Below are positions 2,819-9,775 of a DNA stretch of 64,000 nt, piece by piece (positions within the stretch are counted from its first letter, which is position 1; each line of letters opens with the position of its first letter). Below the pieces are notes generated by a model. That model saw nothing but the letters and a program-made list of their open reading frames with translations. It searched no databases and was not told the DNA's origin. The position numbers and the translations under genes are program-made. The stretch covers positions 124,001 to 188,000 of the forward strand of contig JAUVXV010000001.1 in NCBI GenBank assembly GCA_030603365.1. Reading direction: 5' to 3'. The DNA is from Candidatus Heimdallarchaeota archaeon (GTDB lineage Archaea > Asgardarchaeota > Heimdallarchaeia > Heimdallarchaeales > Heimdallarchaeaceae).

Positions 2819-3988
2819 ATGAGCTCCTCTACGAAATCTAGTTTTGAATGTGAAATTTGTGGAAAAATACTCTCGAGAAAAGATTTACTTACACGTCATA
2901 TTAAGTCTGTACATCAAAAAATTAAATATCCATGTCCTGAATGCTCCTATGTTGCTAACAGACAAGATTATCTAAAACGTCATATGAATGAAGTGCATCT
3001 TAACCTTCGTTCTTATGTTTGTGAGTTCTGTGGGATGAAGTTTAATCAATCTGGAACTATGAACAGACATATAACAACAGTTCATAAGAAAGAGAGAAAT
3101 TATAACTGCCCTGAATGTGAACCTGTTTTTTCTCGTAAGGATCAGCTTCAAAGACACATAAGAGCTGTCCATCTAAATCTTCGACCTTATATCTGTAAAG
3201 AGTGCGGTGCCTCCTTTAAGTTACCCAACCATTTGAAGCAACATCACATATCTATCCACACTAACCAACGTAAATATGTCTGTGAGGAATGTGGTTTTGC
3301 ATTTAAGTTATCACAGCATCTTAACGATCATATCAAGGTTGTTCATCAAAATCATCGTCCTTACGTGTGTGAAGAATGTGATGCTTCTTTTCCCCATGCT
3401 CGTAATCTTAAGTTACACATCATTGCTGTGCATACTGATGAGAAACCTTACGTTTGTGAAGATTGTGGTAGAGGTTTTGCTGATCCTAGTCATTTATATA
3501 AGCATAAACAAGCTGAAGCTTGTTGGTTTACAACTACTACTGCTTACAAATGGGAGGAACTCTGTAAAGAGATAGCAGAGGTTTTACTAGCTGATGAAGA
3601 TTGGAAGTGGAAACCTAAGATAGACACTCCTGAGCTAAAGAAACAGAGCTGGATTCAGCCTGAAATAATTGTATACTACGAAAATAATACGAAAAGAATC
3701 ATTGATGCTAAGAGATCTACTCAAGCGATATTCAAGGAGAAGGATCTGGTAGTATATCCAAAAGTGGCTGAGAAAGTGGAGTTCTGGTGCCTCTATGGTA
3801 AAACTGAGGGAATGTTTGATGAAAAGGAGGAGATGGAGGCTAAGGGTAGTGAGGAGATTATTGCAGAGTTGAAGAAAAGGAAGAATAAAAGGAATAAGAA
3901 TTTGATTGGCAATCTGATAATGAAGGTTGAGATGCTAAAGAAAGGATTAGAATTCAAAGGACAGAGATTACTTATTGATTCTTCCTAA
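2819..3988 (+). CDS. Eight-finger C2H2 protein with a C-terminal PD-(D/E)XK nuclease-like domain
   Basis: I chose the ATG at 2819, three bases after the upstream stop; a TTG at 2813 would overlap that gene. Residues about 10-235 hold eight C2H2 fingers. Seven are C-x2-C-x12-H-x4-H and the last ends in Cys (C2HC). Several linkers read PYVCEEC or PYVCEDC. Residues about 240-389 are different. A helix with WEEL leads into a strand with PE (residues 281-282) and, 13 residues on, a strand with IDAK (D296, K298), then a helix and a WCLYGK strand. This is the layout of PD-(D/E)XK restriction-like nucleases. A basic region follows. The inferred role is sequence-targeted DNA cleavage. The nuclease call rests on the motif only. 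Confidence 0.75.
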   Translation: MSSSTKSSFECEICGKILSRKDLLTRHIKSVHQKIKYPCPECSYVANRQDYLKRHMNEVHLNLRSYVCEFCGMKFNQSGTMNRHITTVHKKERNYNCPECEPVFSRKDQLQRHIRAVHLNLRPYICKECGASFKLPNHLKQHHISIHTNQRKYVCEECGFAFKLSQHLNDHIKVVHQNHRPYVCEECDASFPHARNLKLHIIAVHTDEKPYVCEDCGRGFADPSHLYKHKQAEACWFTTTTAYKWEELCKEIAEVLLADEDWKWKPKIDTPELKKQSWIQPEIIVYYENNTKRIIDAKRSTQAIFKEKDLVVYPKVAEKVEFWCLYGKTEGMFDEKEEMEAKGSEEIIAELKKRKNKRNKNLIGNLIMKVEMLKKGLEFKGQRLLIDSS

Positions 3989-4025: not shown

Positions 4026-6503
4026 TTATTCGTTGGATCTTCTTTCTTCTTCATATTTTTGTAGAAGCTGCCCAGCTTCATCAATTGTGCTTTTTATTTC
4101 ATCTGGATAAAAGGAGTAGAACTGTTCAGCTAACTTGAACCATTTTCTCAATTCACTGAAAGGAATTTCAGTTTGATGAATTAGTAATTTAATTACGAAA
4201 TATGGCATTTCACCGCCTTTTTGTGGTAGTTGCTCTCTCAAAGACCAAGCAGTTGTATAATCTTTTAGAGCATATTCAACATTCTCTAATTCTGCATGAA
4301 ACTGTGCTCGATTATAATGCACTAATGCATTTTTATCATTTAAAACTAGTATTTTATTAAGCTCGTCAAATGCTTTTTCCTTTTCATCTAAACCCCAAAG
4401 TGTAAGTCCCCTATTTAGAATTGCCTCTTCATTCTCTGGTTCTAATTCTATGACTTTTGTAAGTAAATCATGGGATTCTTTAAGTCTTCCCAGCCTTAAT
4501 AATAGGGTTCCTTTGTTATTATAAGCTGTTGCATAGTTTGGATTTACTCTTATTGCACTATCATAATCTCTAAGTGCTCTGTTTGAATCTCCGCGTCTAG
4601 TATATTCTAGTGCTCTATTATTATAAGGATCCACATATTCAGAATCTAGTTCAATTGCTTTATTGTAGTCTTCCAATGCTCTTTCATACTGTTCTAAATG
4701 ATATAACACTCTACCTCTATTGTTGTATGCTATGGGGTCATTTTCATTAAGCTTAATTGCTTTATTATAATCATTTAAAGATTCAGCATGCTTTCCTGTA
4801 TCATCTAATACTTTACCACGATTAATATAGGCTTTTGTGAAATTGGGGTCTATTTCTAACGCCTTATTGAAATCATTAAATGCATCATCGTATCTTTTTA
4901 GATTTGAATAAACAATGCCTCTGTTGTTGTATGTGCTTGCGTTATTTGGATTTAGTGCAATTGCATTATCACACAATCGTAAAGCTGTTTCCCAATCACC
5001 AGTTCTTATATAAATAACTGATTTATTATTGTAAGGATCAGAGTTACTTGCATCGAGTTCTATAGCTTTATCATAATCTTCAATTGCTGAAGAAATGTTT
5101 CCAGTTTTTTGGTTTGCATTTCCTCTATTGTTGTAAATCCCTGAATTATTAGGATCTAAATCTATTCCTAAATTGTAATCTTCTATTGCTTTGTCAAAAT
5201 CCCCAAGCTTTTCGTATACATATCCTCTGTTGGAATAATAGTATGGAATACCGTCCTCTAAACCTATAGCTTTAGAAAGAACCTCAAGTGCCTTTTCATC
5301 AAAATTCAGTTTTAAGTAAGTAGCTGCCAATGAATTCAAATAATTTGATGATTCTTCTTTCTCAAAAAAAGACACCATAAAATTGAGATCCTCTATTAGA
5401 ACTTGTTTTTCTTCAGGATAATCCCATATTACTCTTTGCAAATAGATTTCAGGTATGATGATTTTTTCATCTTTAACTCTGTAGAAATCAGCAAGTTTTA
5501 GGTCAGTATAAATCTCTCTCCATTGATTTCCAACGGAAAAATGCTCTCTTGCAACTGTAGATAACAAAAGAACTGGAGGATTAAATATATTGGATATAAC
5601 AAAAATCTTTATTGCTTTAAGGAAATTTTTCTGTTTAGAATTCAAATTGTTATATTTCTTCTTTTTTGATACAGTGTCAAATACCAAATCACCAGGTTCT
5701 CCACTGTAATTGTCAATTTCAGTTTTTATTTCTAATAAGTCAGCTAGAATTCTCCATTCTGTTTTTGTTAATTCTGGTATCTCTACTCTATAAGGAAATA
5801 GTTTTTCGATATCGTCTCTTTCATCTAGAAATGCGTCTCTTCTAGCAATTGTTTTACCAGCAAGAAACCACTCTTCTGATTGGCAAGTACATATTAATTG
5901 GATATGACTAGAAATTTTCCTGTATTTCTGAATTACAGCATTTAAACTTGTACCTTCATTCAGAAGTTTTACCGTTATTTTATCTATATCATCAAATAAA
6001 AGAATGATGAAATTCCATTTCTTCATGAAGAAGTTGCGATAGGTTTTTTGATTGAAATCACTATCTTTATTCAATAAAATCAGTTTCGCTTTTTGAAAGC
6101 ATTTTGTTGTATTATCAACTTTCGCTTTATCTATTACTAATTTGCGAATAACTTCAATAGATGTTCTTGTTTTACCTCTAGCAATTGGAGCAACTACTCT
6201 AACATCATTTCCTCTTTTAAGTCTAGAGTATAATTCTCTCTCTCTTTTGTCAATAGAGACATATCTGGAATCCCATTTATCGAAAAACAAGCTAGACAGT
6301 TTTCTTCTGATTCTTTTCTTCTTATCTATTTTCTTCTTGAGATATTTTGTTTTCAAAAAAATACCATTGTTTTTAAATTTAATATAGTTTAAAATGCTTT
6401 TAGTAGGTATTGCTAATAATGGTGTAAAAATAGCACCTAAAATCGATCCTATTATGGTTGATGTCCAGTCTCCCATTCTTGTATCCCTGATTTTGTTATT
6501 CAT
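4026..6503 (-). CDS. Membrane-anchored P-loop NTPase with TPR array (STAND-like)
   Basis: 825 residues. The N-terminus has a hydrophobic stretch (about 14-40) that probably anchors it in the membrane, then a basic segment. A P-loop NTPase domain follows with a Walker A-like APIARGKT (105-112; the first Gly is Ala) and a Walker B-like strand ending LLFDDID (about 168-174). From about residue 385 to 790 there are roughly eleven tetratricopeptide repeats with the YNNRG...A...DYNKAIELD pattern. NTPase followed by TPRs is the layout of STAND-type signalling and defence ATPases. It converges with the zinc-finger genes, ending 37 bases from the nuclease-like gene. No function is proven, and a signalling or defence sensor is inference. 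Confidence 0.75.
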   Translation of the reverse strand: MNNKIRDTRMGDWTSTIIGSILGAIFTPLLAIPTKSILNYIKFKNNGIFLKTKYLKKKIDKKKRIRRKLSSLFFDKWDSRYVSIDKRERELYSRLKRGNDVRVVAPIARGKTRTSIEVIRKLVIDKAKVDNTTKCFQKAKLILLNKDSDFNQKTYRNFFMKKWNFIILLFDDIDKITVKLLNEGTSLNAVIQKYRKISSHIQLICTCQSEEWFLAGKTIARRDAFLDERDDIEKLFPYRVEIPELTKTEWRILADLLEIKTEIDNYSGEPGDLVFDTVSKKKKYNNLNSKQKNFLKAIKIFVISNIFNPPVLLLSTVAREHFSVGNQWREIYTDLKLADFYRVKDEKIIIPEIYLQRVIWDYPEEKQVLIEDLNFMVSFFEKEESSNYLNSLAATYLKLNFDEKALEVLSKAIGLEDGIPYYYSNRGYVYEKLGDFDKAIEDYNLGIDLDPNNSGIYNNRGNANQKTGNISSAIEDYDKAIELDASNSDPYNNKSVIYIRTGDWETALRLCDNAIALNPNNASTYNNRGIVYSNLKRYDDAFNDFNKALEIDPNFTKAYINRGKVLDDTGKHAESLNDYNKAIKLNENDPIAYNNRGRVLYHLEQYERALEDYNKAIELDSEYVDPYNNRALEYTRRGDSNRALRDYDSAIRVNPNYATAYNNKGTLLLRLGRLKESHDLLTKVIELEPENEEAILNRGLTLWGLDEKEKAFDELNKILVLNDKNALVHYNRAQFHAELENVEYALKDYTTAWSLREQLPQKGGEMPYFVIKLLIHQTEIPFSELRKWFKLAEQFYSFYPDEIKSTIDEAGQLLQKYEEERRSNE

Positions 6504-6761
6504 ATAATGTTATGGTTTTTTCTTTTAAATATATAGCTTTCAATTCTGCTTTTAGGTTGTCTAAGTATCAATAGAACTTAGTTTGTTTCTATCATAACGA
6601 GAAAAAACTGATTTAAAACAGCACCCTCTATCCTTTCTATACGTATAAGGTGGCCGTAGAGGCCGCAAAATGTAAAATCTACATTTTTCACTTTTTTTAT
6701 TTTTTATAGAGTATTATAGGTATCAGTTTTACTTAAAAGCAATGGAAGTGTATACTTCTAT
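6504..6761. promoter_or_regulatory. Divergent intergenic region with hairpins
   Basis: This region separates the divergent TPR-NTPase and YaaC-like genes, so it should hold both promoters. It also holds a short GC-rich patch: GTGGCC (6650-6655) pairs with GGCCGC (6661-6666, one G-T pair) around the loop GTAGA. Directly after it, AAAATGTA (6667-6674) and TACATTTT (6680-6687) form a perfect 8-bp stem followed by a T-tract. A similar patch recurs near 9710-9765 and more weakly near 9160-9205. It may be a small RNA, an attenuator or a terminator. Confidence 0.4.
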
Positions 6762-7685
6762 ATGTTTGATCAACCAACAAGATTGGATGTTCTAAAAAAA
6801 CTACAAGATTTACAATACCCTTATACTATAGAAAAGATGCTCCAAGAACGTAATGAAAGAATTCAATATTCAAAAAAATATAAGGGACCTTCCGCTAGGC
6901 ATCATTGTTATGAGAGAATAGAAAAATACGAAAAAAATATTGAACTACTAAAAAATATTAGAAACAAGTTCAAAGGAAAAGAAATGCTTTCAATAGCTTT
7001 CTCAGCAAATGAGACCGAAGAGGAGATTTTAAAGAAAGTAAAAAAAATCAAAAAAAGCAGCGGTTCAGAGGAGTCAACGGTTAAAGCAAACGTTTTTCTT
7101 GATAAAAAGAAGAAGACAATTATAAAAAGAGCCTTTGAAATTTCTCTCTATTTCTCCCAAGGGTATGAGATGTACAAAACATCAATTGATATGAATATCA
7201 GTTCTAGTCCGATTATCGAGTATTATGCAATTTTACAAATTATTAAAGCAATTATTCTTCTTGAACTTGATGTAGATTCACACGAATTTTTCGGTGCTCA
7301 TGGATTGGAAAGAAAGAAAAGCAAAGATGGCGGTTCTATATTGCAAGTGAAAACAAAAACCTTTGGAGTTTTTGCATCTTTACTGCTTCGGACTTGTGGT
7401 TTCTCATTTAAAAAAGATGGATCAAAAGAATACGAGCTAGATAAATATTATAATAATTATTATCCTAAATTTGAGGACTTAATTGATAAAGAATCGCTAT
7501 ATCTTAGCACACCTGAAGCATTTATCTTTATATGGATTTTATCAGAAATAGCCAGATACCAACCTGAGAAGTGGAAGGAAATTTGCTCTGGTAGAGACAA
7601 TGACTGGATTAAAACTATAAACAATTTCAGAGAAGAAGGTATTCCCAAATTTTTCTTTGATTTGTTAAACTTTTATTGTAATTAG
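6762..7685 (+). CDS. YaaC-like protein of unknown function
   Basis: 307 residues, mostly alpha-helical, with basic residues up to about 125. The centre has SSPIIEYYAILQIIKA followed some 20 residues on by GAHGLERKK, then KTFGVFASLL. This order (YY-A-hydrophobic helix, HGL, then GVF) resembles the YaaC-like family, whose role is unknown and which is often found near defence genes. I recognise it from motif pattern only. It stands alone on the plus strand between two minus-strand island genes. No signal peptide or membrane segment is seen. Confidence 0.5.
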   Translation: MFDQPTRLDVLKKLQDLQYPYTIEKMLQERNERIQYSKKYKGPSARHHCYERIEKYEKNIELLKNIRNKFKGKEMLSIAFSANETEEEILKKVKKIKKSSGSEESTVKANVFLDKKKKTIIKRAFEISLYFSQGYEMYKTSIDMNISSSPIIEYYAILQIIKAIILLELDVDSHEFFGAHGLERKKSKDGGSILQVKTKTFGVFASLLLRTCGFSFKKDGSKEYELDKYYNNYYPKFEDLIDKESLYLSTPEAFIFIWILSEIARYQPEKWKEICSGRDNDWIKTINNFREEGIPKFFFDLLNFYCN

Positions 7686-9708: not shown

Positions 9709-9775
9709 GCATAAGACAAGCGGTTGTAAATGCCGTAGGATGTAGGTTTTCTACAATTTCACTCTTTTTTTACTA
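9709..9775 (+). other. Hairpin element similar to the one near 6650
   Basis: Just after the nucleotidyltransferase gene, ATGCCGTAGGATGTAGG leads into a 5-bp stem, TGTAG and CTACA with a GTTTT loop, then ATTTCACTC and a T-run. The order GCCGTAG, ATGTA, TCTACA, TTTCACT, T-run is shared with 6652-6700. It may act as a terminator or be part of a small RNA. Confidence 0.35.

Follow-up and report, generated by a model that had tools for sequence, protein, structure and literature searches.

A natural zinc-finger nuclease beside rpS11 in Heimdallarchaeota as a probable homing endonuclease element

Introduction

The 64-kb stretch of Heimdallarchaeal DNA analyzed here (the window) starts with an S13-S4-S11 ribosomal operon (S13, S4 and S11 as judged by Pfam), and behind rpS11 lies a gene whose product joins eight zinc fingers to a nuclease-like C-terminal domain. 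Which DNA do these fingers read, and what would a nuclease be doing at this location? Zinc-finger nucleases are known mainly as human-made tools, which is why a natural version matters; in the engineered enzymes a C2H2 array is joined to the FokI domain, with about 5–6 bp from the array site to the cut. No natural “zinc-finger nuclease” was found in the open-access literature searched, and papers on Asgard defence and on Asgard ribosomal clusters make no mention of zinc fingers. We propose, at a probability of roughly 85%, that the locus is a homing endonuclease element in which a natural zinc-finger nuclease acts on rpS11. The main comparison covers about 20 genomes of one Heimdallarchaeal genus (Heimdallarchaeota genomes including AB_125), and the genome data are metagenome-assembled genomes throughout.

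Results

Architecture and predicted fold of the nuclease

The nuclease gene (positions 2819–3988, + strand) encodes 389 amino acids from an ATG, with an alternative TTG start possible at 2813. Fingers 1–8 occupy residues 11–235 and the C-terminal domain about residues 240–385. Pfam zf-C2H2 matches the fingers in eight stretches (E=9.2e-45), in agreement with the number of C2H2 fingers counted in an earlier sequence-only reading of this DNA, except that the eighth ends in Cys and is a C2HC finger. The tandem C-x2-C-x12-H-x3-5-H/C units have the beta-beta-alpha layout of C2H2 arrays, and AlphaFold2 (AF2) models all eight with pLDDT values of about 80–88.

The last 155 residues of the window protein matched no Pfam family. 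Across all members of the domain Pfam gave at best weak matches to RmuC (E 0.0018) and the LlaJI restriction endonuclease (0.0047), and a sequence-profile search of the PDB found nothing. Since the full-length AF2 model has good fingers and, lacking distant homologues, a poor nuclease domain, we modelled the domain alone from a 21-sequence alignment (pLDDT 83, pTM 0.79). The modelled core runs helix-strand-strand-strand-helix-strand, which is the alpha-beta-beta-beta-alpha-beta order of the PD-(D/E)XK superfamily. In the PDB, almost all of the top Foldseek matches belong to PD-(D/E)XK nucleases or to repair enzymes of a restriction-like type (EcoO109I, McrC, Bax1, Card1, NucS, AvaII, EndoMS, VRR_NUC); the scores are individually weak (best E 1.6e-3, TM about 0.46), yet the list is uniform. 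Structure prediction and fold search thus both returned the restriction-like fold that the sequence-only reading had anticipated from motifs.

The residues on which that reading relied, P281-E282 and D296/K298, are invariant in a 17-row full-length alignment, as is E246 in the preceding helix. In more distant paralogues E and D are swapped, PE becoming PD and DAK becoming EIK or EVK, as in PD-(D/E)XK enzymes; over 21 domains the pattern reads helix-1 E15, P50-E/D51 and D/E65-x-K67. The nuclease core is under purifying selection (median pairwise dN/dS 0.11), and because the domain also occurs in 19 of the 21 genomes of the genus searched, the motif pattern is not a product of chance. The idea of a natural zinc-finger nuclease in an archaeon is supported at the level of sequence and predicted fold, and the window protein would be expected to cleave DNA in a metal-dependent manner.

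A cassette behind rpS11, displaced 3′ ends and empty sites

In the window, rpS11 (uS11; 1667–2341, + strand; Pfam Ribosomal_S11 E=1.6e-42), the host and presumed target gene, is followed by a separate gene for a 4-finger C2H2 protein without a nuclease domain (2430–2816, + strand), a putative shield or regulator, and then by the nuclease gene. The operon has two further peculiarities: rpS4 (573–1658) carries long repeats and a C-terminal helix-hairpin-helix domain, and rpS11 has an N-terminal extension rich in Lys and Asp. The finger genes lie directly 3′ of rpS11 in every carrier that has both genes on one contig.

Downstream of the cassette, 10 of 17 carriers (G007, G010, G011, G008, G004, G001, G006, G014, G018 and the window's genome) hold displaced copies of the rpS11 3′ end, two each in G004 and the window's genome. 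These remnants are partial 3′ ends with a T-rich flank in the same orientation as rpS11, and score 22–60 bits in a profile search against a reverse-strand maximum of 2.1. None was found in the other seven carriers, two of which have little downstream sequence, nor by profile search in cassette-free G016, G002 and G021. The displaced remnants correspond to the rpS11 segment 2313–2341 (+ strand) of the window, which would place the cut or junction near 2307–2313. Remnant 1 of the window (6647–6675, + strand), which continues into a T-rich 3′ flank, is the sole match with at most three mismatches to the S11 3′-end consensus in the 64-kb window (shuffles expect 0.00) and across the 3.65-Mb genome. 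Remnant 2 (9722–9745, + strand) is more diverged; its profile score is 36.0, and the reverse strand of this 9.5-kb region reaches at most −8.8. A whole-genome scan with 23 bases of the S11 3′ end (≤3 mismatches) returned only rpS11 and one remnant in G007, G008, G010 and G011; in the window's genome it returned the remnant alone, rpS11 itself being unmatched because its tail is recoded, and the reversed-pattern control gave 0. There are no additional genome-wide S11 3′-end copies beyond the remnants in G000, G007, G008, G010 and G011.

Passenger genes lie between the copies. A TPR-repeat protein (4026–6503, − strand; Pfam TPR) with an N-terminal GKT, P-loop-like motif separates the nuclease gene from remnant 1, and a YaaC-like gene (6762–7685, + strand; Pfam YaaC E=2.9e-18), with homologous ORFs in L004, L005 and L028, follows that remnant; in G007 and G010 the YaaC-like gene sits directly 3′ of the nuclease. 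In G001 and G004 a remnant abuts the nuclease stop codon, which implies that the minimal unit is the finger gene or genes plus the nuclease.

As in homing elements, which adjoin their target and are missing from alleles of some close relatives, G016 and G002 have empty sites. G016 is a close relative of G010, G011 and G007 (6–11% third-position difference in the S11 body); its thioesterase gene starts about 90 bp after rpS11, and in G007, G010 and G011 the same gene comes only after the remnant. The empty site of G016 could also be a secondary loss through recombination between the repeats.

Duplications at other genes beside sister nucleases

The same type of duplication is seen at a second C2H2 nuclease (L020, in L026), which together with a membrane-protein gene is flanked on one side by an intact fixX-like ferredoxin gene and on the other by a duplicate of that gene's 3′ end (61 bp, 93% identical, E 5e-22; L026:2880-5863), and in G012 (L079) a decayed nuclease domain lies beside fixX. 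L024, a nuclease domain on a DUF4379 array with one internal stop, adjoins a gene called PIG-L-like here after its AHPDDE motif, and a second copy of the 5′ segment of that gene lies on the far side (57 bp, 88%). Flank repeats at L021, L023 and L025 did not rise above chance, and the finger code of L020 fits fixX at best at 10 of 14 bases, which is not significant for the region searched.

These arrangements bear on the view that another enzyme, an integrase or transposase, inserts the cassette at the rpS11 3′ end as its attachment site, the finger protein being cargo or a regulator of rpS11. Direct copies of a gene's 3′ end around a cassette are typical of integrase sites, and passengers are present. 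Yet the unit in G001 and G004 consists of finger gene(s) and nuclease without a recombinase, the duplication recurs with L020 at fixX, where G012 also has its decayed nuclease, the target read by the fingers adjoins the junction, and the rpS11 tails are mosaics of a gene-conversion type (both below). We consider this view improbable.

The finger array matches the rpS11 tail

In standard zinc-finger contacts, position −1 reads G by Arg, A by Gln and C by Asp, and position 6 reads G by Arg or Lys. The array prediction from the protein alone is 5′-GNC N9 GNG GNA GNG GNG-3′ (10 coded bases). The bottom strand of the Thr-Pro-Leu-Pro-His-Asp-Gly-Cys-Arg codons in the empty rpS11 of G016, GACATCCGTCATGTGGAAGGGGGG, matches it at 10 of 10 bases, a score reached at 0 of about 247,000 background positions. 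The carriers' own S11 genes mostly match at 8–10 of 10, or at 7 with arrays that code for fewer bases; in the window, the predicted 24-bp site of fingers 8–1 (2283–2306, − strand; same codons) matches at 9 of 10, and in G011 the rpS11 site is the sole exact match in a 3.5-Mb genome.

The register was first spotted by eye and the controls came afterwards. Permuted finger orders reach 10 of 10 anywhere in the 500-bp S11 region of G016 in 0.09% (0.0009) of cases. In a code-independent test over 24 contacts, residue variability among carriers tracks rpS11 base variability (Spearman 0.85, finger-permutation p 0.004), and the chosen register is the best of 272 by variability match. The code is poorly predictive for fingers 5–7, and the long conserved recognition sequence at the insertion site is a prediction of the code. 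Fingers 5, 6 and 8, opposite the two-fold-degenerate codons His, Asp/Asn and Cys, are the only ones with an invariant His at position 3; this position varies in fingers 1–4 and 7, whose codons are those for Thr, Pro, Leu, Pro and Gly. Homing endonucleases are known to tolerate changes at wobble positions (PMC3943268).

Finally, counting back from the last base of the S11 stop codon, finger 8 ends at 35 nt and the longest remnants start at 29–31 nt, so that a C-terminal nuclease would sit at the junction, 4–6 bp away from the array. Taken together, the fingers appear to read the tail of rpS11.

The match also bears on a restriction or defence nuclease, whose array would read a motif of invaders and whose rpS11-flanking locus would tend to collect defence cargo (TPR/NTPase, YaaC-like). 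Such an enzyme might well have a PD-(D/E)XK fold, which is typical of restriction enzymes, and the passengers between remnants do vary. The code, however, fits the host's own rpS11, the contact residues are conserved genus-wide rather than fast changing, a Pfam search of neighbours at distances of up to about 9 kb found no partner methylase, and PADLOC gave no match for the nuclease. Based on the code fit and the PADLOC result we rejected a defence system, which has, in our estimate, only a slight chance of being correct.

A nuclease-less finger gene and possible self-protection

The 4- or 5-finger proteins encoded upstream of the nuclease repeat the contact code of nuclease fingers 1–4 or 1–5, with its order unchanged. 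Of nine carriers with this gene, eight have a CTN Leu codon in rpS11, leaving the site intact; among eight carriers that lack it, seven have TTR, which breaks a finger-2 contact. The association has a Fisher p of 0.0034 with ancestry ignored, and the tree gives about three concordant changes, G006 and G011 being exceptions. With its matching code, the nuclease-less array may act as a shield of the host site, and from these codon patterns a shield-or-recode rule for host rpS11 is possible, at moderate to low confidence. Self-protection is not explained by it, since several carriers retain 9 of 10 bases of their own site and G011 has a complete site and no shield gene.

Mosaic rpS11 tails

The last ~24 rpS11 codons of carriers are mosaic, and the gene body resembles that of cassette-free relatives. 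Third-position diversity in 20 close pairs is 0.03–0.20 along S11 and rises abruptly over the final three blocks of eight codons (0.48, 0.37 and 0.28), a jump that is absent from twelve genomes of other genera. The S11 body of G005 is nearly identical to that of empty G002 (0–2 differences per 30 nt over most of the gene), yet the two genes are unlike at 21 of their final 60 nt, where G005 resembles G013. Likewise, G020 combines the S11 body of empty G016 with 17 differences in the last 60 nt and a nuclease closest to that of G008. As judged by the tails of G005 and G020, cassette and S11 tail move together horizontally. Such tails are the co-conversion signature of free-standing homing endonucleases, and WHO elements have been described with this pattern at yeast FBA1 (PMC7282813).

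This movement also counts against a domesticated regulator whose nuclease domain is dead and which serves to bind rpS11, as DNA or as mRNA. A stable place beside the ribosomal operon throughout the genus would suit a regulator, but the catalytic E, P(E/D) and (D/E)xK are invariant apart from E/D swaps and the dN/dS is as low as 0.11; of the alternatives weighed here, we find it the hardest to credit.

Distribution and partners of the nuclease domain

Among 38 relatives no other genus has the domain, a profile search of 228 Asgard-phylum genomes adds C2H2-nucleases in two other families of the class (L065 and L066) and one relative without fingers, and a GTDB contig scan found it in Heimdallarchaeota only. 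L065 (G046:C353), at a contig start, carries two additional zinc-ribbon-like CxxC motifs at its N terminus. An origin from a virus or plasmid was considered and rejected, as viral contigs, phages and plasmids gave no relatives.

Within the genus the domain is also joined to five to seven DUF4379 treble-clef repeats, to a second C2H2 array, whose linkers are of the TGEKP type, and to repeats associated with homing endonucleases (HNH_repeat); fusion to several array types marks it as a modular unit placed by nature on DNA-reading arrays of different kinds. Loci with DUF4379 arrays (2–7 copies seen) or homing-endonuclease-associated repeats are L021 (G000:C3), L022, L023, L024 and L025.

Discussion

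We suggest the following course of homing. The eight fingers would contact the rpS11 3′ end on its bottom strand, over the codons TPLPH(D/N)GCR, with an array-alone consensus expected to be 5′-GRCANCCRTCRTGNGGNAGNGGNG-like and synonymous positions tolerated. The PD-(D/E)XK domain, 4–6 bp past finger 8 and presumably acting as a dimer, would cut rpS11 alleles without a cassette. Repair from a cassette-bearing copy would then replace the rpS11 tail with that of the donor and place the nuclease gene, in many cases accompanied by the nuclease-less finger gene, after rpS11, displacing the old tail downstream as a remnant; successive rounds would give the array found in the window. The host's own rpS11 would be protected by the shield protein or by recoding.

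WHO elements (HO family) of Torulaspora and Lachancea yeasts combine a nuclease with zinc fingers and lie downstream of the housekeeping gene FBA1 (PMC7282813). As there, a stand-alone nuclease gene with zinc fingers lies directly 3′ of an essential housekeeping gene (PMC7282813), 3′ fragments of the target gene are interspersed downstream, the 3′ end of the target is mosaic and successive insertions form arrays. WHO nucleases are intein-derived, with CXXC/GATA-like fingers and FBA1 as target, in contrast to a C2H2 array with a PD-(D/E)XK-fold domain, rather than an intein-like (HINT/LAGLIDADG) nuclease, aimed at rpS11 in archaea. The remnants are also shorter (about 15–80 nt against about 400 bp), and the extra nuclease-less finger gene has no WHO counterpart. 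The rpS11 element works like a WHO element and is not a member of that family.

The same nuclease superfamily serves homing in I-Ssp6803I, a PD-(D/E)XK homing endonuclease of a bacterial group I intron that has no zinc fingers; the nuclease described here differs in being free-standing and in having a modular array. With engineered zinc-finger nucleases it shares an array followed by a C-terminal PD-(D/E)XK-type domain and a similar, here predicted, spacing from array to cut; it differs in being natural, in a nuclease domain without detectable sequence relation to known families and in an array that accepts synonymous variants of a coding target. R2 retrotransposons likewise unite C2H2 fingers and a restriction-like endonuclease in one natural chain and target a conserved gene, but their fingers flank a reverse transcriptase and they move through RNA, and the rpS11 element has neither a reverse transcriptase nor an RNA route. 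Already known, then, are the nuclease superfamily and the homing principle; the architecture and the target logic are new.

Our broader proposal, to which we give even odds, is a modular family of zinc-finger homing nucleases in Asgard archaea, in which one PD-(D/E)XK domain is carried on C2H2, DUF4379 treble-clef or HNH-associated arrays and retargeted to rpS11, fixX and PIG-L, the array reads a coding motif with tolerance of synonymous change, and a nuclease-less sister array shields the host site as the protein counterpart of a protective methylase. The compact nuclease domain is one that nature itself has swapped between DNA-reading modules. As the target can be read from the fingers and checked in genomes, the locus opens to direct test the DNA specificity of natural fingers, gene-drive-like homing in Asgard archaea and the way in which mobile DNA recruits C2H2 arrays.

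The element also gives tandem C2H2 arrays a use in relatives of eukaryotes: in 224 Asgard-phylum genomes searched, the majority of such arrays belong to this nuclease locus. Among genus mates of G000, about 860–880-aa ORFs correspond to a large conserved protein with a single C2H2 finger match (G000:C13:272073). In other Asgard genomes, TniQ, the target selector of Tn7-type transposons, is fused to 13 C2H2 fingers in L083 (G161:C669; Pfam TniQ E 6.6e-35) and to 6 in L075 (G028:C329; 3.1e-17), and C2H2 arrays seem to serve as target readers for transposons too.
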